Assembly: GCA_027624045.1 (NCBI GenBank)
Contig: JAQBUE010000044.1
Coordinates: 1 to 33,144, forward strand
DNA from: Acidobacteriota bacterium
Lineage (GTDB): Bacteria; Acidobacteriota; Terriglobia; Bryobacterales; UBA6623
Direction: 5' to 3'
DNA length: 33,144 bases
The notes under the pieces were generated by a model. That model was given only the letters and a program-made list of their open reading frames with translations, had not been told where the DNA came from and did not search any database. Shown here in pieces: positions 2,864 to 17,296 of the stretch; within the stretch, counting starts at the first letter, position 1, and each line of letters starts with the position of its first letter. The translations under genes and the position numbers were made by a program.

Positions 2864-5800
2864 TCAGCTATTGACGTCGAAGTAGATGCAGTCGGGGTGC
2901 TGGAAGACGATAGCACTCACGCTGGCCTCGGGTTCCATCATGCAACCCTCTGTAAGTTGCACGCCGATTTCCTGGGGCTGAAGCAGCTCGAAGAGGACTT
3001 CTTGGTCATCAAGGTTGGGACACGCCGCATAGCCGAAACTGTAGCGCCGTCCGCGGTATTTGGATTTAAAGCGTTCGCGCATCGTCATTTCAGCCGGATC
3101 GGCGAAACCCCAGTCCTCGCGAATGCGGCGGTGGACCCACTCGGCCGCGGCTTCCGCCGTCTCGATCGCCAAGGCTTGAATGGCGTGTGACTTCAGGTAT
3201 TCGCCGCGCTGCTTGTATTCTTCAGAGCACTCACGGATACCCTCGCCGGCGCCAACAACGAAGGCCGCGATCGAGTCACGGGTTCCGTTCGAGGTGGGAA
3301 TCACGAAGTCGGCCAACGAAATTCCATCGTCACGGCGTTGCCGGGGGAAGCAGAATTCACGGCTGGCCGTCTCGGATTCGCCTGCGAAGAGCCGGATCGT
3401 GTTCCCCTCGGATTCCGCGTCAAAGAACTGCCACACGGCACGGACTTTCATCAATTCGCGTGCTTCGTCCTTCACCTGCTCCATCACCGCTTGCAGCTCC
3501 AGCGCCTTTGGGTCGCGGTCGGCAAGCTTCTTCTCGAAACTACCTTGCAGACCCAGATGCCGTGAATAAAGCATCTGCGGATTCAGGTAGCTCCACACCT
3601 CATCGAGTTGCGGAACCTCACGCTTCATACGGTCGCGATAAGGCGCGCCGACAGCAGGCAAGTCGACGCGCACTCGCGTACTGCGCCGCAGCGAGATCAC
3701 CGGCGCTTCCTGCTGTCGGGCTGGGCGATCGTCTTCACGCGGGGCGTGCTCGGCGTAAACGGCATCACGCTCGGTCTTATCCATCAGTCGATTCATGAGA
3801 CTGAGGCCGGTCATGGCGTCTTTCGAGTAACAAACAGGCGATCCGTAAGATGGCGCGATCTTACGCCGGGTGAAGCCATCGCTCAGCGCGGCTCCGCCCA
3901 CAAGAATGGGCACCGAGACACCGGCTTCGCGCAGATCGCCGGCCGTGATGACCATCTGCTGGGCGCTCTTCACAAGCAAGCCGGAAAGACCGATGACGTC
4001 TGGATTGTGTTCCCGGTAGGCCTTGATGAGGTCCGCGGGTGGAACCTTGATGCCCAGATTTACTATTTTGTAGCCGTTGTTCGTCAGGATGATATCCACG
4101 AGGTTCTTGCCGATGTCGTGAACATCCCCTTTCACCGTCGCCAGGATGACCTTGCCCTTGGCCGCGGTGTCGACGCGGTCCATGTACTGTTCGAGGTGGT
4201 TGACGGAGGCCTTCATCGCCTCGGCGGATTGCAGAACCTCGGCGACGATGAGTTCGTTGTTGTTGAACAGGCGGCCGACCTCTTTCATGCCGGTCATGAG
4301 CGGACCGTTGATGATATCGAGGGGCGAGGTGCCTTCCAGGCGTTTGATTTCGAGATCAACGACGAGTCCTTCCTTGGTCCCTTCGATGATGTAGTTGGCG
4401 AGCCGTTCGTCGAGCGGCAGGTCGGCGGTAACTTTCCTGACGCGTCCCTTCGACCCGCGGAAGTGCTCGGTGATCTTGGCGATATGGTGCTGGTTGATCT
4501 CGGCTCGCTGTTGAGGTGATTGCTCACGATAATCCTCGGGAGCATCCGAACCATCAAGAGGCGCGTTCTTCAGCAGATCGTCGGCAAGCTTCTTCTCGTT
4601 CTCGGGAATGGCGGCGTAGCGTTCGAGTTTCTCAGTATTGACAATAGCCAGGTCAAGTCCGGCCTTGGTGGCGTGATAGAGAAAGACCGAGTTGACAACT
4701 TCACGCGCGGCGGCAGGCAGACCAAAGCTGACATTGCTCACGCCGAGAACGGTCTTACATTGCGGCAGCGCTTGCTTGATGAGGCGAAGCGATTCGATCG
4801 TTTCCACGGCGCTGCCAATGTAGTTTTCATCGCCGGTGGCACAGGGGAAAACCAGCGGGTCAAAGATCAAGTCTTCGGCTAGGATGTCCCACGTTTCGGT
4901 GCAGAGCTTATGGGCTCGTTGCGCGATGGCCAGTTTGCGTTCGCGTGTAACGGCTTGCGCCTGTAGCTTGTCTTCGTCGATCGATCCGATGATGATCGCC
5001 GCGCCATACTTCTTGACGAGCGGCAGCACTTGGTTGAAGCGCTCTTCGCCGTCTTCAAAGTTGACCGAGTTGATGATGCTCTTGCCAAGACAGTAGGTAA
5101 GAGCGCGCTCGACGGACTGCGAGTTCGTCGTATCGATCATGAAAGGCGCTTTGACCTTGTGGATGACCTTCTCGTAGAAGCGGTCGATGTCTTCGAGTTC
5201 CTCGCGGTCGGGGTTTTCGAGATTGATGTCGATGATCTGCGCGCCGTTCTTCACTTGCCGGCGGCCGATCTCGGAGGCTTCCTCGTATAGTTCGTTGCTG
5301 ATGAGACGTTTGAAGGCGCGCGAGCCGACTTCGTTCGTGCGCTCGCCGACAAGCAGGGGACGATTATCGTCCGACGCCTCGACGAGTTCGATACCGCTGT
5401 AGTAGGTGCGGAGCGCACCGCGATGCCGCCGCGGCTCCTTGCCTTCGACCATTTGGGCGATGGCCCGGATGTGGTCGGGCGTCGTGCCACAGCAACCGCC
5501 GATCAGGTTGATCCAACCGTTTTTGGCGAAGCGTTCGAGCGCGGAGGCTAACGAATCGGGTGTTTCCAGATACTGCCCGTCTTCGTCGGGAAGCCCCGCG
5601 TTGGGATAACAGGATACGGCACACCTCGCCATCTGATGCATCGTGCGCAGATGGTCGGTCATGAACTCGGGGCCGGTTGCGCAATTCAGGCCGACCGAGA
5701 GCAGGTCGATATGCGCGAGCGACGCCACGAAAGCATCCGCCGCTTGGCCGGCGAGCATGGTTCCCATCGGCTCGATCGTTCCCGAGACCATGATCGGCAC

Positions 5801-6373
5801 CTTGCGGCCCAGTTCCTCGAAGACAAGTTGCATCCCGAGCAGCCCTGCTTTGACATTGCGCGTGTCCTGGCAGGTTTCGAGCAACAGCAGGTCGGCTCCC
5901 CCTTCGACCAGCGCCTTGGCCTGATTGAAGTAGTCGAGCTTGAGATCATCGAAAGTGATGCCGCCGGTGACGGTCATGGCCTTCGTGGTTGGCCCCATCG
6001 AGCCGGCTACAAAGCGCGGCTTGGCCGATGTCGAGAACTCGTCGGCGGCCTGACGGGCTAATTTGGCCGCGGTGAAGTTAATCTCGTACGCCTTATCAGC
6101 GAGTCCGAAATCCTTGAGATCACCAGCGGTGGCGTTGAAAGAATCGCTCTCGATGACATCGGAGCCGGCCTTAAGATAGGCGCGGTGAATGTCGAGGATC
6201 ACGTCCGGGCGAGTCAGGACTAGATGGTCGTTGCTGCCTTCGTACTCCGGCCCGCCAAAGTCATCGGCGGTCAGGTCGTGCTGCTGGATGGCTGTCCCCA
6301 TCGCGCCATCAAGCACGACAACGCGCTCGTTGAGCGCTTCGCGGATGAGCCTGCTACGATCGTTTTCATTCAT
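2864..6373 (-). CDS. metH: Cobalamin-dependent methionine synthase MetH
   Basis: Transfers the methyl group of 5-methyltetrahydrofolate to homocysteine through methylcobalamin. The full modular architecture is present in about 1169 aa. The homocysteine domain (about 1-320) has zinc-ligand cysteines in GLNCATG and GGCCGTTPDHI. The pterin-binding domain (about 345-620) contains RTNEVGSRAFK and DTTNSQSVERAL. The cobalamin cap (about 650-740) is followed by the B12 domain with the cobalt-ligating DxHxxG motif (GDVHDIGKNLV; His752, close to His759 of E. coli). The C-terminal reactivation domain carries the AdoMet-binding RRYSFGYAACP. I choose the ATG at 6373 (MNENDRSRLI) because it aligns with the start of known MetH proteins; a TTG 18 nt upstream (6391) is also in frame. 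No B12, SAM or SAH riboswitch could be recognised in the leader. It is divergent from the YkgJ-like gene. Confidence 0.97.
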   Translation of the reverse strand: MNENDRSRLIREALNERVVVLDGAMGTAIQQHDLTADDFGGPEYEGSNDHLVLTRPDVILDIHRAYLKAGSDVIESDSFNATAGDLKDFGLADKAYEINFTAAKLARQAADEFSTSAKPRFVAGSMGPTTKAMTVTGGITFDDLKLDYFNQAKALVEGGADLLLLETCQDTRNVKAGLLGMQLVFEELGRKVPIMVSGTIEPMGTMLAGQAADAFVASLAHIDLLSVGLNCATGPEFMTDHLRTMHQMARCAVSCYPNAGLPDEDGQYLETPDSLASALERFAKNGWINLIGGCCGTTPDHIRAIAQMVEGKEPRRHRGALRTYYSGIELVEASDDNRPLLVGERTNEVGSRAFKRLISNELYEEASEIGRRQVKNGAQIIDINLENPDREELEDIDRFYEKVIHKVKAPFMIDTTNSQSVERALTYCLGKSIINSVNFEDGEERFNQVLPLVKKYGAAIIIGSIDEDKLQAQAVTRERKLAIAQRAHKLCTETWDILAEDLIFDPLVFPCATGDENYIGSAVETIESLRLIKQALPQCKTVLGVSNVSFGLPAAAREVVNSVFLYHATKAGLDLAIVNTEKLERYAAIPENEKKLADDLLKNAPLDGSDAPEDYREQSPQQRAEINQHHIAKITEHFRGSKGRVRKVTADLPLDERLANYIIEGTKEGLVVDLEIKRLEGTSPLDIINGPLMTGMKEVGRLFNNNELIVAEVLQSAEAMKASVNHLEQYMDRVDTAAKGKVILATVKGDVHDIGKNLVDIILTNNGYKIVNLGIKVPPADLIKAYREHNPDVIGLSGLLVKSAQQMVITAGDLREAGVSVPILVGGAALSDGFTRRKIAPSYGSPVCYSKDAMTGLSLMNRLMDKTERDAVYAEHAPREDDRPARQQEAPVISLRRSTRVRVDLPAVGAPYRDRMKREVPQLDEVWSYLNPQMLYSRHLGLQGSFEKKLADRDPKALELQAVMEQVKDEARELMKVRAVWQFFDAESEGNTIRLFAGESETASREFCFPRQRRDDGISLADFVIPTSNGTRDSIAAFVVGAGEGIRECSEEYKQRGEYLKSHAIQALAIETAEAAAEWVHRRIREDWGFADPAEMTMRERFKSKYRGRRYSFGYAACPNLDDQEVLFELLQPQEIGVQLTEGCMMEPEASVSAIVFQHPDCIYFDVNS

Positions 6374-6469
6374 CAGGGTATGAAAAGGCAAACCCCTGAA
6401 TCGTCGCCTTGCCTGTAGGAATACCTGGCGGCCAGAGCAGATTCGGGTTTGTGCGTACGATTACGTTTC

Positions 6470-7310: not shown

Positions 7311-8467
7311 GTGATCGCCGCCATTGCCAAAGAAAGTTATCCCGCTGAGAAGCGCGTAGCATTGATTCCGCGGGATGCCGCCGCCTACCGGAAAGCCGGA
7401 CTCGACATTGTTGTCGAAGCGGGCTCTGGAGACGCGGCATTGCACGCCGACTCCGTGTATGAAGCGCACGGGGCGCGGATCGAGCCGGATCGGGCGGCGA
7501 TATTCTCCGCCGCTGACCTGCTGCTCACCGTTCGCGGGCCGGGTGCTCACCTGGGTTTCCCGGCAGCCGATCTGGATCGACTCAAGAAGGGTGCCGTGGT
7601 GATCGGCTTCCTCGAACCGCTCGCGCAGCCCGAGGCGATGCGTGCGTTAGCCGAACGGGGATTGACGGCCTTCGCAATGGAATTGATCCCGCGCACAACG
7701 CGCGCCCAAAGCATGGACGCCCTAAGTTCCATGGCGAACATCGCCGGCTACGAAGCCGTGCTGCTGGCGGCGACGCGCTCGCCGAAAATGTTCCCAATGA
7801 TGATGACCGCGGCGGGAACGATCACGCCGTCCAAGGTCTTCGTTCTGGGAGTCGGTGTCGCGGGATTGCAGGCCATTGCCACCGCACGACGGCTTGGAGC
7901 GTTGGTCGAGGCGTATGATATTCGCCCCGAGGTCAAGGAGCAGGTGGAAAGCGTTGGCGGACGGTTTGTGGAACTCGAGATCGAAAGCGAGACGTCCGCG
8001 GGCAAGGGCGGTTACGCGGCGGCACAGTCAGAGGATTTCTACAAGCGTCAGCGCGAGCTGCTTGCCGAGCGGCTGGAGTCGGTGGACGTTCTCATTACAA
8101 CCGCCGCAGTGCCGGGCAAGCGCGCCCCAGTTCTGATTACGAAAGAGATGGCGGAGCACCTGCCTCTCGGGGCGGTGGTTGTGGACTTGGCGGCCGAAAA
8201 GGGCGGCAATTGCGAGTTGACCCAGCCCGGCGTCGAGGTCGTGCATCAAGGAGTAACGATTCTCGGCCCGCTGAATCTAGCCGCGAAAGCAGCCTATCAC
8301 GCCAGTCAAATGTATTCGAAGAATCTCACCAGTTTCGTCACCCTAGTTGTGAAGGAAGGCAAGCTGGAGCTGAACCTGGACGACGACATCATCAGTGGCA
8401 CTCTGGTGGCGCACGATGGCAAAGTCGTGCATCCGGCGGTGCGCAAGGCGCTCGGGGAGGCAGACTG

Positions 8468-8468
<1 letters not shown>
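7311..8468 (+). CDS. pntAA: NAD(P) transhydrogenase subunit alpha, soluble NAD(H)-binding part
   Basis: Domain I of the proton-translocating (Re/Si-specific) transhydrogenase, which transfers hydride between NADH and NADP+ using the proton gradient. The 385-aa protein begins with the alanine dehydrogenase/PNT N-terminal fold (AIAKESYPAEKRVALIPRD). The NAD-binding Rossmann motif follows at about residues 180-190 (GVGVAGLQAIATARRLGA), and AYDIRPEVKEQVESVGG is typical of the family. The start is a GTG at 7311; a GGAGAAG sequence lies somewhat far upstream. In many bacteria the alpha subunit is a single polypeptide; here it is split, with the membrane part encoded by the next gene, which overlaps it by one base (TGATG). 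Confidence 0.96.
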
Positions 8469-8749
<281 letters not shown>

Positions 8750-8779
8750 GGAAACACCCGTTCCAGACAAAAATTTACC

Positions 8780-10165
8780 GTGCAGCAAAACCTCATCAAT
8801 ATCGCTTACCTGCTGGCCTCAGTCCTGTTCATTTTGGGCATCAAGGGGCTCACATCCCCTCGCACGGCCGTGCGGGGAAACCTGCTTGGCGCCATGGGCA
8901 TGCTGGTCGCTGTCGTGGCGACATTGCTGGATCAGCACATCGTCAGATTTGAGTTGATTCTCACGGGCATCGTCGTAGGCTCCCTGATCGGCGCTGTGTT
9001 GGCGATCAGAACCCCGCTCACTTCGATGCCGGAGCTCGTCGCGATGTTCAACGGGTTCGGGGGTGGCGCTTCGGCGCTCGTTGCCGCAACGGCGGTGTTG
9101 ACGCCCGAGATGATCGGTGATGTTCCCCCGATACAGCTCTACACCGCTAGTGTGGCGAGCGCGATTATCGGCGCGGCGACGTTGACGGGCAGTCTGGTTG
9201 CTTGGGCAAAACTGCAGGGCGTGCTCTCGATGCAGCCCCGCGGCGGTTTTCTGCAGACGTTGAACTTCGTTTGTATCGCGGCCTCGATCGGGCTCGGCGT
9301 TTATTATTGCTACGACCCGACGGCGCTTTGGGCCTTCTGGGGACTGACCGCCGCCGCCGCCCTCTACGGAGTGCTTTTCACAGTGCCGGTGGGCGGAGCC
9401 GATATGCCGGTCGTCATCGCGATCCTCAACTCGTTATCGGGGCTGGCCGCCGCCGCAACTGGATTTGTCTTCGGTAACAATGTCCTCATCATCAGCGGAT
9501 CGCTGGTGGGCGCATCGGGCTTCATTCTCACCCAGGTCATGTGCCGCGCCATGAACCGTTCGCTGTGGGACGTGCTTTCCGGCGACATGGGCCAGGTGGC
9601 TGTCGGCGGTCCGACTGACGACGAGGTCTACAAAGGCCGCGTCAAGAGCGCGTCCGCCGAAGAGGCGGCCATGATTCTAGAAACAGCCCGTAGCGTGACG
9701 ATCGTTCCCGGGTACGGCATGGCGGTAGCTCAGGCACAGCATGCCGTGAGGGATTTGGCGAACAAGCTCAAAGCCAAGGGTGTGAAGATTCGTTACGGCA
9801 TACACCCCGTCGCGGGCCGCATGCCGGGGCACATGAACGTGCTGCTAGCTGAAGCCGATATCCCCTATGACGAGCTCCTCGACATGGATCAGATCAACCC
9901 GACGTTCGCGCAGACCGACGTCGTCATTGTGCTCGGCGCCAACGATGTGGTAAATCCGGCGGCACGCGATGAGACCAGCAGCCCGATCTACGGCATGCCG
10001 ATACTCGACGTCGATAAGGCGCAGACCGTGATGGTGATTAAGCGAAGCTTGAGTCCGGGCTTCGCCGGAATTCCCAACCGCCTTTTCGCGGCTGACAACT
10101 CACTCATGCTCTACGGCGATGGCGAGAAGGTGGTTCGGGAACTCATAGCCGCCTTCGACCAGTAG
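8780..10165 (+). CDS. pntB: NAD(P) transhydrogenase subunit beta
   Basis: A 461-aa beta subunit. Residues 1 to about 270 form eight or nine membrane helices with the family signature MFNGFGGGASALVA. The C-terminal ~180 residues are the NADP(H)-binding domain III, with VPGYGMAVAQAQHAVRDLA, GIHPVAGRMPGHMNVLLAEA and GANDVVNPAA. The start is a GTG at 8780, 30 bp after pntAB. The three genes form one operon. The complete enzyme supplies NADPH for biosynthesis or redox defence. Confidence 0.97.
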   Translation: MQQNLINIAYLLASVLFILGIKGLTSPRTAVRGNLLGAMGMLVAVVATLLDQHIVRFELILTGIVVGSLIGAVLAIRTPLTSMPELVAMFNGFGGGASALVAATAVLTPEMIGDVPPIQLYTASVASAIIGAATLTGSLVAWAKLQGVLSMQPRGGFLQTLNFVCIAASIGLGVYYCYDPTALWAFWGLTAAAALYGVLFTVPVGGADMPVVIAILNSLSGLAAAATGFVFGNNVLIISGSLVGASGFILTQVMCRAMNRSLWDVLSGDMGQVAVGGPTDDEVYKGRVKSASAEEAAMILETARSVTIVPGYGMAVAQAQHAVRDLANKLKAKGVKIRYGIHPVAGRMPGHMNVLLAEADIPYDELLDMDQINPTFAQTDVVIVLGANDVVNPAARDETSSPIYGMPILDVDKAQTVMVIKRSLSPGFAGIPNRLFAADNSLMLYGDGEKVVRELIAAFDQ

Positions 10166-13282: not shown

Positions 13283-13864
13283 ATGCCCTCCCGTCATCGT
13301 TCTCGCGAACGGGCGCTGCAGATGGTCTTTCAGTGGGATCAGAGTCGCGCGCCCGCCGAAAGCATCATGGCCGACTACTGGGGTAGCCTGTCGAAAGACG
13401 AGGACAGCGTGGCTCCCGAACCCGACCTTTTTGCGAACAATCTGCTCACAGGTGTCGTCAAGAATATCGACGTCATCGACGCCCTCATCACGAAACACGC
13501 CCAGAACTGGCGTATCGAGCGCATGTCCACCGTCGATCGCAGCATCCTGCGCTTGGGCATTTGCGAGATGATGCGCGAGCCGTCGCTGGCCCCCGTCGTG
13601 ATTGACGAAGCGATCGAGATTGGCCGGCGCTTTTCGGAAGACTCCGGGCCTTTCCTGAACGGGATACTTGATGCCGTGCGGCGTTCGCTCGAAGGCGGCG
13701 ACCCTGAGCCCGAGCCTGCGGCAGGGGCCGAGCCCGAGTCTGGGGCCGAGCCTGAGCCTGCGGCAGGGGCCGAGTCCGCGGCAGGGGCCGAACCCGAGAC
13801 GGCCTCAGCGGCCGTCTCGGCTACTGAATTGCCCCCGACCCAATCGCCTTCGGATCAATCTTGA
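13283..13864 (+). CDS. nusB: Transcription antitermination factor NusB with low-complexity C-terminal tail
   Basis: NusB binds boxA RNA with S10/NusE and promotes antitermination in rRNA operons. Residues 1 to about 137 form the all-helical NusB domain: RSRERALQMVFQWD, IERMSTVDRSILRLGICEM, VVIDEAIEIGRRFS and FLNGILDAV. Usual NusB length is about 140 aa, whereas this is 193. The extra ~55 residues are a Glu/Pro/Ala/Gly-rich imperfect repeat (units like EPEPAAGA, EPESGA, ESAAGA), then a Ser/Thr-rich end. The tail is encoded by a GC-rich tandem repeat. Its last 44 bp overlap the convergent DUF3467 gene and include that operon's terminator-like hairpin. The tail is probably disordered and dispensable, which is inference. 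Confidence 0.95.
   Translation: MPSRHRSRERALQMVFQWDQSRAPAESIMADYWGSLSKDEDSVAPEPDLFANNLLTGVVKNIDVIDALITKHAQNWRIERMSTVDRSILRLGICEMMREPSLAPVVIDEAIEIGRRFSEDSGPFLNGILDAVRRSLEGGDPEPEPAAGAEPESGAEPEPAAGAESAAGAEPETASAAVSATELPPTQSPSDQS
13794..13820 (-). terminator. Perfect 11-bp hairpin directly after the DUF3467 stop
   Basis: CCGAGACGGCC-TCAGC-GGCCGTCTCGG is a perfect, GC-rich 11-bp stem with a 5-nt loop. It abuts the stop codon of the minus-strand DUF3467 gene (13821-13823) and is embedded in the 3' coding region of nusB. Its position suits termination of the SYLF-SYLF-DUF3467 operon, but no T-tract follows on the minus strand, so it may act as an mRNA 3'-end stabiliser or a Rho-assisted terminator. 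Confidence 0.5.
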
Positions 13865-14135
13865 TCTCCCCAAACGCCCCTTCATACTGGCCAATGTTCT
13901 GGCTCAACGCCAGCAGCAAAGCCTTTGCCTGTTGCGGGCTCAAATAGATCCCCGCGAAATTCTTGATTGTTACTTCATTCGGTTTCTGCTGGTGGATCTT
14001 GCCGAACTGAATAAAGAAGTCCCACAGGTTCACGCGGATCTGCACGCTGTTCGAGTAGTGTTCCTTGTACTCAGGCGTCTCGACCAACTTGATGATGGCC
14101 TGTTGAGGTGGATTGGGCTGGTTTGGTTGACTCAT
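13821..14135 (-). CDS. DUF3467 domain protein
   Basis: A small soluble protein of 104 aa in the DUF3467 family. It shows the typical core SNSVQIRVNLWDFFIQFG, then VTIKNFAGIYLSPQQAKALLLALSQNIGQYEGAFGEI. The N-terminus is Pro/Gln-rich. No function is established for the family. It follows the two SYLF genes on the same strand with a 33-bp gap. The nearest Shine-Dalgarno (GAGG) is only about 3 nt from the ATG, tighter than usual. Its 3' end overlaps the convergent nusB by 44 bp. Confidence 0.85.
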   Translation of the reverse strand: MSQPNQPNPPQQAIIKLVETPEYKEHYSNSVQIRVNLWDFFIQFGKIHQQKPNEVTIKNFAGIYLSPQQAKALLLALSQNIGQYEGAFGEIKIDPKAIGSGAIQ

Positions 14136-14168: not shown

Positions 14169-14852
14169 TCAATCTCCCTGGCGCCGCGCTGGCGAATACT
14201 TGTTCAGAACGTCGAGCAGCGGCCGCGCCGGCGGTGTCGCCGGAATCTGCCCGAGCAGAATCTCTTTCGGGTACGGACCCCAACCCTCATACAACACGCG
14301 GTTCGCTTTGTGCGCCGGCCGCAGCGTCGCGCCGTCGATCGACACACCCGCGAACAGGCCGCGTGATCGCGAGTAGCTCACGATCTCCACTCCCAGCAGC
14401 GCATCGGTTTGTCCGGCCGCCGTACGGCCCACCGGCCCCGCCGCCGCCGTGCCGTCGAGACCGATCGTAAAGCCTGTCCGCAGCAGTTTCGGGATGGCGC
14501 GCTTGCCCATGAACAGCAACACCAAGTCGGTTTGATTGCCGCCGATTTGAAAGCCGATGTTTCCGCCTTCGATGCGAAAGTTCACTGGCGCGCTCCAGGA
14601 CGAATCCTCAACGCGGCACGTCACGACGCCCTTGCCGAAGCGCCCGCCGATCAGCAGCGCGCCCTTCCATACCGACGGAAACACGCCGACGCAATGCGCG
14701 CGGTCGAGCAGGTTCGACGGAATGCCTTCACCAACGCCGTGCAGCGTCTCCGATAAAACCGACGCAGCCGCTTCCAGCCGCTTCTCGACGCCGGACTTCG
14801 CCGCGGCGATTGATGCCGTCCCCAGTGCCACGGCACAGCCAAGAACAAGCAC
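14169..14852 (-). CDS. SYLF-domain (Ysc84-like) lipid-binding protein, 5' end disrupted
   Basis: SYLF/DUF500-family protein, related to the phosphoinositide-binding Ysc84/SH3YL1 domain and to bacterial BPSL1445-type lipoproteins. Core features over 227 aa are the HCVGVFPSVWKGALLIGGRFGKG segment (short form: IGGRFGKGVVTCR), GNIGFQIGGNQTDLVLLFM, AAAGPVGRTAAGQTD, and SYSRSRGLFAGVSIDG with LRP. The only usable start in the intact frame is a GTG at 14852, giving a signal peptide without its positively charged n-region and with no Shine-Dalgarno. A strong AAGGAG plus in-frame ATG lies at 14900-14886, but codon 2 is TAG. Without that stop the protein would begin M-x-RVQFPLRKQWVLVLG, a textbook signal peptide. 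The gene is therefore either freshly damaged, translated at low level from the GTG, or controlled by the start-stop site. It is a paralogue of the gene immediately upstream. Confidence 0.82.
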   Translation of the reverse strand: MLVLGCAVALGTASIAAAKSGVEKRLEAAASVLSETLHGVGEGIPSNLLDRAHCVGVFPSVWKGALLIGGRFGKGVVTCRVEDSSWSAPVNFRIEGGNIGFQIGGNQTDLVLLFMGKRAIPKLLRTGFTIGLDGTAAAGPVGRTAAGQTDALLGVEIVSYSRSRGLFAGVSIDGATLRPAHKANRVLYEGWGPYPKEILLGQIPATPPARPLLDVLNKYSPARRQGD

Positions 14853-14882
14853 CCACTGCTTGCGTAAAGGGAATTGAACTCT

Positions 14883-14900
14883 CTACATAACAGTCTCCTT
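14883..14900 (-). promoter_or_regulatory. Shine-Dalgarno + ATG + TAG (start-stop) before SYLF gene
   Basis: On the minus strand the sequence reads AAGGAG, six bases, ATG, TAG. Spacing and sequence are ideal for initiation, and the ATG is in frame with the downstream SYLF coding sequence, but the very next codon is a stop. The site begins three bases after the stop of the upstream SYLF paralogue, where translational coupling would be expected. Confidence 0.75.
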
Positions 14901-14902
14901 GC

Positions 14903-15598
14903 CTAGCGATGTTTCACGCTCGAATACCTGTTCAGCGCATCCATCAGCGGTTGCACACTTAATGGCGCGGCAACGTCAGCCAGCAGCACCTGCTTCGGGT
15001 CCACAGGCCCGCCGTAGAGCCTCTCATTTGCCCCGTGTGCCGGCCTCAGCGTCGCGCCCTCGAGCGAGACCCCGGCGAACAATCCTTTCGAACGCGAGTA
15101 CGACAGTATCTCGGCGTGAAGTTGAGCGTCCGTCTGAGCCTGCGCTGAACGCCCCACCGGGCCGCCCGCCACGGCGGCGTCCGCGCCCAAAGTAAACTTA
15201 CTGCTGAGCAGCTTCTCCGCTCCGCGTTCGTTCAAAATCAGCAGCACCAGATCTGTAGAACTGCCGCCGATCTGCAACCCCAGGCTGCCGCCTTCGATGC
15301 GAATCGCTGTCGGCGCCGTCCAACCAAAGCCGTTGTCGCCGCGACACGACAGGATACCCTTGCCGTAATGCCCGCCGACCACGAACCCAACCTTCTTGAC
15401 GCCAGGGATGATCGCGACGCAATGACTGCGGCTCATCAGGTCCTGCGGAATCGCCTTTTCAGGCGTACCTATCACGCTGTCGAGCACACGCGCCGCCCGC
15501 AGACAGCGATCAACAGCCGAATTCGACGCCAGGAGACAGGGAACAGCGAGAGCGCAAACAAGAAACAGCCGAACAACCGTGCCGACATAGTGGGTCAT
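14903..15598 (-). CDS. SYLF-domain (Ysc84-like) lipid-binding protein
   Basis: A 231-aa exported SYLF/DUF500 protein. It has a signal peptide (MTHYVGTVVRLFLVCALAVPCLLAS), then HCVAIIPGVKKVGFVVGG, GSLGLQIGGSSTDLVLLIL, AVAGGPVGRSAQAQTDAQ and SYSRSKGLFAGVSLEGATL. I start it at the ATG at 15598 because a strong GGAGAGG Shine-Dalgarno sits six bases upstream; a TTG at 15613 is also in frame but lies upstream of that site. Family members bind membrane lipids; the bacterial role is unclear. The next gene is a clear paralogue, indicating tandem duplication. Confidence 0.9.
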   Translation of the reverse strand: MTHYVGTVVRLFLVCALAVPCLLASNSAVDRCLRAARVLDSVIGTPEKAIPQDLMSRSHCVAIIPGVKKVGFVVGGHYGKGILSCRGDNGFGWTAPTAIRIEGGSLGLQIGGSSTDLVLLILNERGAEKLLSSKFTLGADAAVAGGPVGRSAQAQTDAQLHAEILSYSRSKGLFAGVSLEGATLRPAHGANERLYGGPVDPKQVLLADVAAPLSVQPLMDALNRYSSVKHR

Positions 15599-15817: not shown

Positions 15818-17296
15818 TTGCCATCTCGATCGGCTAACCTGTATGGCTTGTCTTCCTTATCTGACTTCAGCAGGTCGCCACTCGAACGTTCTCAACGGTC
15901 AGAGCCCGCACTTTTCCTGGACTTGTTCCGTGGAAAACACTTACTCTGGCAGGGCTTCTTCGGTTCCTATGTTGTCGGGCTCGACCGCCTGTTGCCGGTC
16001 GCGGCGGTGTCCTGCCTGGACGACGGTTCGGATTTCGACCTGATCAGGGATGGATGCAACATCGAGTTCTGTTCGGTGGATGCGATGCGCCGGCGCCGCA
16101 CAAACTGGATCGGCAGCGGCATCGACGGAATTTTCCAGCAACGCGGCCCCGCCATTCGAGAGTTGCTGCGCCGATATCCCAAAGATTCGTGGCTGCTAAC
16201 TTCCTCGCCGCCATGTCCCCTGATGCGGACTTTTTGCGCGGACCTCGGCTATCGATACGTTGGGACGCAGCCGGAAGCCATCGGGCAATTCAAGCACAAG
16301 GCGCGGTTATTCGAAGCGCTGGACGAGTTGCAGCTACCACGCATCCCCGGCTCTTGGCAGCGGCTCGGCGCCCGATCGTATGAAGAGCTTGCTTCCGAAT
16401 TTGGCTCCGATGTCGTGGTGCAGCAGCCACTCGGCGCGGCTGGCTCAGCAACGGCCCTGCTGCGATCCCGAGCGGATCTCGACCATTTGGACAACACCTT
16501 TCTCGGGATGGACGTTTGGGTAGCGCCCTATCTCGGCGAACTGTCGTTCAACATCAACGCGGCCGTCATCGGGGATTTGGTCTGCGTCGGCTTCCCGAGC
16601 GTGCAACTGGCGGGCTGCGAGGAATTGGGCGCGCCCTGGGGCGGGTATTGCGGCAACGACTATACAGCCGCGACTGAAACAGATGCCGCGATCATTGCCG
16701 ATGTCCAGCAGCAAACCGAAAGAGTCGGCGAGTGGCTTCGGTCCCGAGGGTTTGAAGGCGTCTACGGTTTGGACTTCGTGCTGAATCCCGCCGACGGCCG
16801 AGCGTACGCCGTTGACCTCAACCCACGCTGGCAAGGGTCGACCGCATTGTCGATTCAGGCCGAACTCGAAGCGGGACGTTTGCCCCTGATGGCCGCCCTG
16901 TTTGGGGCGCAATGCGGCGTGTTTGGATCGGGCGACATCCGGCCCCTGCAAGAGTCGTTTCGGAAGCCGATCAGAGGATCTCAGCTCAATCTGCGATGCC
17001 GGATGCGTGTCGAATCGACCGTAACGGAGCCGCTTCAACCCGGTGTGTACCATCTGGCGGGAAATCTGAAATTCAAACACACGGCTTTCCGGCTCGGGGA
17101 CCTCAACGGCGACGAAGTTCTTTTGACCGGCGGCGTGCCTCGCAAGGGCGTCGTGGTGGAACCAGGCGCGTGGCTCTGCCGGCTGGTCTCGGGCAGAAGC
17201 GTCTGCATACCACATTCGCCACGCTTGAACCGCTGGGCTGCGCAGGCCGCCGACGATGTCCATTCGCGATTCAACTTCGAGACAGCCGAGCAGTGA
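15818..17296 (+). CDS. ATP-grasp domain protein of unknown function
   Basis: A protein of about 492 aa with an ATP-grasp core. TQPEAIGQFKHKARLFEALDELQLPRIPGS marks entry to the fold (short form: FKHKARLFEALDELQLPR). The metal-binding motif near the end of the domain is VDLNPRWQGST (D333, N335, R337), typical of carboxylate-amine ligases and biotin-carboxylase-like proteins. An N-terminal pre-ATP-grasp region (about 1-145) and a C-terminal ~120-residue domain flank it. No substrate can be assigned. The start is uncertain: the listed TTG at 15818 has no Shine-Dalgarno, and no in-frame ATG occurs early. A short ATG frame at 15766-15798 overlaps this leader region. It is not visibly related at sequence level to the three GshB-like ligases further right. 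Confidence 0.75.
   Translation: MPSRSANLYGLSSLSDFSRSPLERSQRSEPALFLDLFRGKHLLWQGFFGSYVVGLDRLLPVAAVSCLDDGSDFDLIRDGCNIEFCSVDAMRRRRTNWIGSGIDGIFQQRGPAIRELLRRYPKDSWLLTSSPPCPLMRTFCADLGYRYVGTQPEAIGQFKHKARLFEALDELQLPRIPGSWQRLGARSYEELASEFGSDVVVQQPLGAAGSATALLRSRADLDHLDNTFLGMDVWVAPYLGELSFNINAAVIGDLVCVGFPSVQLAGCEELGAPWGGYCGNDYTAATETDAAIIADVQQQTERVGEWLRSRGFEGVYGLDFVLNPADGRAYAVDLNPRWQGSTALSIQAELEAGRLPLMAALFGAQCGVFGSGDIRPLQESFRKPIRGSQLNLRCRMRVESTVTEPLQPGVYHLAGNLKFKHTAFRLGDLNGDEVLLTGGVPRKGVVVEPGAWLCRLVSGRSVCIPHSPRLNRWAAQAADDVHSRFNFETAEQ

Follow-up and report, generated by a model that had tools for sequence, protein, structure and literature searches.

The window analysed here, 33,144 nucleotides of a contig from an Acidobacteriota genome, holds on its minus strand a gene start in which a good ribosome-binding site and an ATG are followed at once by an in-frame TAG stop. 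Behind the stop, the frame continues into a gene of the SYLF family, which we call SYLF2, and a tandem paralogue, SYLF1, lies immediately upstream of the site. We think that this is probably a nonsense lesion at codon 2 of a dispensable, diverged tandem paralogue, with at most weak reinitiation at a GTG codon downstream (14852). The most likely description of SYLF2 is that of an ordinary broken or nearly silent paralogue.

Under this explanation, SYLF2 would be an extra, fast-evolving, dispensable tandem gene that has kept its ribosome-binding site and its ATG, and that has a stop as its second codon. Ribosomes initiating at 14888 would terminate immediately at the TAG, so that no secreted protein would come from that start. 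At most, a little protein might be made by termination and reinitiation at GTG 14852, and it would come without the positively charged n-region. The ATG would be the former start of the gene, the TAG a real mutation in the organism, and expression would be abolished or strongly reduced.

The site and its genes

The coordinates of the site and of the genes around it are given in Table 1. The first-pass annotation had described the arrangement as AAGGAG-N6-ATG-TAG in frame with a SYLF gene, and re-reading the minus strand gives exactly this, with ACTGTT as the spacer. It had also named GTG 14852 as the only alternative start, without a Shine-Dalgarno and with the positive n-region lost; this GTG is indeed the next in-frame start-type codon, and its description is accurate.

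Table 1. Features of the start-stop site and neighbouring genes (positions in the window)
Feature	Position	Strand	Basis
Shine-Dalgarno AAGGAG	14895..14900	-	sequence
ATG start codon, 6-nt spacing from AAGGAG	14886..14888	-	sequence
TAG stop as codon 2, in frame with SYLF2	14883..14885	-	sequence; RF1 present, no PylS over cut-off
SYLF2: 237 open codons and stop; signal-peptide-like N-terminus and SYLF/Ysc84 domain	14169..14882	-	PF04366, E 1.5e-30; signal peptide judged by eye
Nearest in-frame start-type codon behind the TAG, a GTG; lacks a Shine-Dalgarno; may serve for reinitiation	14850..14852	-	
SYLF1, upstream tandem paralogue, taken from the ATG read as its start	14903..15598	-	PF04366, E 4.8e-37
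DUF3467 gene, downstream of SYLF2	13821..14135	-	PF11950

SYLF1 ends at 14903, and the ATG of SYLF2 comes 14 nt further on, on the same strand. The two proteins are 48-49% identical, and both score far above the curated cut-off of PF04366 (106 bits for SYLF2 and 127 bits for SYLF1, vs. 25.1). As in nonsense pseudogenes generally, the in-frame stop sits between the only good start of SYLF2 and its conserved domain.

That codon TAG should be a stop in this organism follows from the presence of release factor RF1 and the absence of a pyrrolysine synthetase. In a profile search of the genome itself, a draft of 342 contigs that is 93% complete, prfA scores 523 bits, over its cut-off, while the PylS profile finds three weak hits of at most 24 bits vs. 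a 178-bit cut-off. (The same profile gives hits in 13 of 14 control genomes, only 1 of them over the cut-off.) Moreover, SYLF1 uses TAG as its own stop, both in this genome (G000) and in the same-genus genome G002. Recoding of TAG by pyrrolysine or a suppressor tRNA, such that codon 2 is read through, has nothing specific in its favour apart from those three weak hits, and with RF1 present and no PylS over the cut-off we reject it as having a negligible chance of being right.

The frame behind the stop looks healthy. There is no second in-frame stop after the TAG through 237 codons, down to the stop at 14169, and the composition is ordinary for a coding sequence, with GC3 of 0.76 and a codon adaptation of 0.69 vs. 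0.63-0.79 in the neighbours, which are the same genes that serve as the codon-adaptation reference. The first-pass annotation had concluded that any inactivation must be recent. This is fair in that the frame is otherwise undamaged, but it bounds the age only loosely. Of the single-base changes open to this frame, 2133 in all, 70 would create another stop; simple arithmetic from that ratio, ignoring indels, gives about 90 as the number of substitutions that could accumulate before a second stop is to be expected at 95% probability.

The undamaged 237 codons, the ordinary coding composition, and the 106-bit match to PF04366 are at the same time part of what stands against a lesion. The retained open frame, codon usage and domain speak for the proposal that SYLF2 is functional from another start, namely GTG 14852, reached perhaps through translational coupling or reinitiation; the ATG-TAG would then be a relic or a chance occurrence. 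Termination followed by reinitiation is documented in E. coli in the available text of PMC9841429, and we count it in favour of this proposal; the same text has reinitiation falling off with distance, which we count against GTG 14852. This codon lies 30 nt past the TAG, has no Shine-Dalgarno, and a protein started from it loses all positive charge before the hydrophobic stretch. Use of another start seems to us rather improbable.

A more technical possibility is that the TAG is an error of sequencing, assembly or strain mixture, and that codon 2 is a sense codon in the organism, whose SYLF2 gene would be normal. In favour of an error, just one base is anomalous, and the rest of the frame is intact and normal in codon usage; this is, moreover, a draft genome, and most of the named relatives are MAGs, as this assembly may be too. 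Against an error, the site is mid-contig; homopolymers between 14850 and 14950 do not exceed 3 bases, and repeats reaching 14 bases are absent from 14700-15100. Of the 15 window proteins that were scanned, 14 match Pfam families, mostly over nearly their full length. Nonsense-broken genes are also more frequent in bacterial genomes than consensus substitution errors, and the signs of weak constraint on SYLF2 described below fit a real lesion. On balance we consider an error unlikely.

Elsewhere in the window, three regions deserve mention in their own right. A 492-aa frame on the plus strand (15818-17296) has no Pfam match at E 1e-5, and its C-terminal part appears ATP-grasp-like by eye. Also on the plus strand, 7311-10162 holds what appears to be a gene set for an NAD(P) transhydrogenase, with AlaDh/PNT-type and PNTB genes. 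On the minus strand, 2867-6391 encodes a B12-dependent methionine synthase whose five Pfam domains lie in a single frame.

Distribution and divergence of SYLF2

Two same-genus genomes were compared, and SYLF2 is found in neither. On its contig in G002, the SYLF1 orthologue runs up to position 1029 and the DUF3467 gene starts at 1104, leaving no SYLF2 in the interval. G001, which is listed as 98% complete, lacks SYLF and DUF3467 matches alike; this double absence suggests that G001 has lost the SYLF-DUF3467 stretch. Of 17 further family genomes, only 4 have a SYLF match of any kind.

Relatives of SYLF2 above 51% identity are likewise missing from wider searches. None is listed in 61 nearby genomes or among 77 loci of a species collection (which may omit very near records). 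A search of 257 genomes of the order lists none either at E 1e-58 or better, a level that matches in 23 genomes, this one included, reach. The nearest relatives by SYLF2 protein are Acidobacteriota. A comparison of codon 2 thus has only distant relatives to draw on, and these do not have an ATG-stop at that place. Because no orthologue with a sense codon 2 appears in the searched sets, calling the TAG a mutation rests on the anatomy of the site.

The two paralogues differ in how they sit in a tree of 107 SYLF rows. SYLF1 groups with its counterpart in G002 (support 100/98). SYLF2 stands by itself next to the 60 remaining rows of its clade, a weak placement (83/55) that carries a long-branch warning, and its end branch measures 1.35 vs. 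a median of 0.19, the second longest of the 107. The conserved columns, compared over 61 rows taken as Acidobacteriota, give a similar picture. At columns conserved at 95% or more, SYLF2 matches 37 of 42, where the median is 41 of 41. By this measure it comes last among the 61 rows, and it does so also at conservation thresholds of 85% and 70%.

Judged from these comparisons, SYLF2 looks like a dispensable, weakly constrained extra tandem copy. Its divergence fits relaxed constraint, with the caveat that a changed function would look alike; the divergence could mean a new function rather than decay, and this, too, would speak against a lesion.

Starts in the family and the frequency of the motif

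If the ATG-TAG were a regulatory device, one would like to see it elsewhere. The first-pass annotation had left three options standing, a nonsense mutation, an assembly error and a start-stop regulatory element. The comparison favours a lesion, whether real or technical: SYLF2 is missing from the same-genus genomes, is diverged, and has an ATG-stop just upstream of its frame, which 0 of the 103 other untruncated SYLF rows have. Conservation, motif counts, RNA folding and Rfam lend the regulator no support.

SYLF genes usually have a recognizable start. For 92 of 104 untruncated rows, we find a start with a Shine-Dalgarno-like word that leads into a hydrophobic segment. Twelve rows fail this filter: SYLF2 itself and 11 relatives, and in several of the latter there is an ATG but no clear Shine-Dalgarno. 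Among 94 accepted starts (two of them from truncated rows, and selected by a filter that leans towards K/R), 90 have one to three K/R in residues 2-8 and 4 have none. For SYLF2 to match this N-terminal layout, the residues behind the TAG have to be read. The relatives that fail the filter (11 of 103) give a start without a clear Shine-Dalgarno some precedent in the family; they and the four starts lacking K/R speak for use of another start in SYLF2.

A GTG- or TTG-stop at the upstream frame end does occur in five other rows (L005, L027, L033, L056 and L079), two of them with a weak Shine-Dalgarno-like word (L027 and L079). Each of the five has a likely start further downstream, which in L027 and L005 is an ATG without a clear Shine-Dalgarno. 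With these downstream starts, and with no ATG-stop in the other rows, we discard the start-stop as a trait of the SYLF family. A separate irregularity is seen in L070, where a TAA comes directly before the domain-matching residues with no start codon between; this frame looks interrupted or misassembled, and the coverage of the record is 2.2.

Since every open frame is bounded upstream by an in-frame stop, the quantity to count is how often an ATG with a good Shine-Dalgarno precedes that stop. We surveyed 657,231 bases, consisting of the window and loci L003-L108, L110-L112 and L114-L128, which overlap in part, counting each frame once. With spurious frames left in, this yields 652 distinct frames that are open for 200 codons or more. 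An ATG-stop precedes 5 of the 652, and only one of the five has AGGAG or GGAGG 5-9 nt before the ATG: SYLF2.

The bare motif, on the other hand, is common by chance, and what is unusual here is its position at a gene start. Using a reversed pattern as control, an imperfect one since its word content differs, AGGAG-N5-9-ATG-TAG has 2 sites in this genome vs. 9 for the control, and 56 vs. 127 in counts summed over 18 genomes of the family. The form with TAA or TGA (ATGTRA) is about equal to its control in this genome (7 vs. 6), and in one genome, G003, the TAG sites exceed the control (6 vs. 4). We inspected 37 motif sites, namely 30 of the family's 56 TAG sites (this genome's included) and the 7 TAA/TGA sites of this genome, an inspection that genes shorter than about 100 codons behind a site could escape. 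Besides SYLF2, at least 200 open in-frame codons follow the motif only at L164, where there are 500, antisense to a longer frame. Neither the counts vs. the reversed control nor the inspected sites give any sign of a recurrent start-stop class in this genome or family, and we drop that candidate. Taken together, the frame and motif counts indicate that the ATG at 14888 is most likely the former start of SYLF2.

These results weigh heavily on the regulator, in which ribosomes would initiate and terminate at the ATG-TAG, occupy the site, and tune SYLF2 through reinitiation. We judge it very unlikely. It draws on the good Shine-Dalgarno, the ATG and the stop, all directly after the stop of the upstream cistron, and on precedent: the available text of PMC9841429 describes a start-stop site that controls narQ in E. 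coli, and that of PMC11915504 an AUGUAA stalling element in plants. Against it are the absence of an ATG-stop in the other SYLF rows, motif counts that in this genome and in the family sum are not appreciably above control, and the antisense setting of L164. Around the site, the RNA fold is hardly better than that of shuffled sequences (z -1.15, with 25 of 200 shuffles at least as good), the window has no Rfam match, and the searched sets contain no orthologue in which conservation of the start-stop could be seen. Beyond its anatomy, the regulator has no positive support. A more specific version, in which the ATG-TAG is a switch coupled to termination of SYLF1, with SYLF2 kept near silent and released at GTG 14852, perhaps as a shorter protein without the charged n-region, gets very little credence from us.

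Consequences and comparison with known systems

A broken or reduced SYLF2 matters little beyond annotation. There, an automatic gene caller would probably start SYLF2 at GTG 14852, hiding the lesion and giving a false N-terminus; the mechanical list of open reading frames does begin the gene at that GTG. If the start-stop were functional after all, it would be a natural bacterial case of termination at codon 2 controlling a downstream paralogue.

Three known situations can be compared with this site. With its start codon directly before a stop, it resembles the GUGUGA of E. coli narQ, where, in the available text of PMC9841429, the start codon directly precedes or overlaps the stop. The difference is that in narQ a second start overlaps the stop, whereas SYLF2 has only the in-frame GTG 30 nt on. 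The minimal AUG-UAA open reading frame of plant NIP5;1, as described in the available text of PMC11915504, also has its stop directly after the AUG, but it is an element of a eukaryotic 5′ leader with boron-dependent stalling, while the element of SYLF2 is in frame with the coding sequence and directly before it. The third likeness is to a nonsense-broken (pseudo)gene in a paralogous pair: SYLF2 keeps its signals and its frame, has one premature stop next to an intact paralogue, and is missing in the same-genus genomes. It departs from the typical case in that the stop is at codon 2 and leaves the whole domain untouched, and its inactivity is putative.
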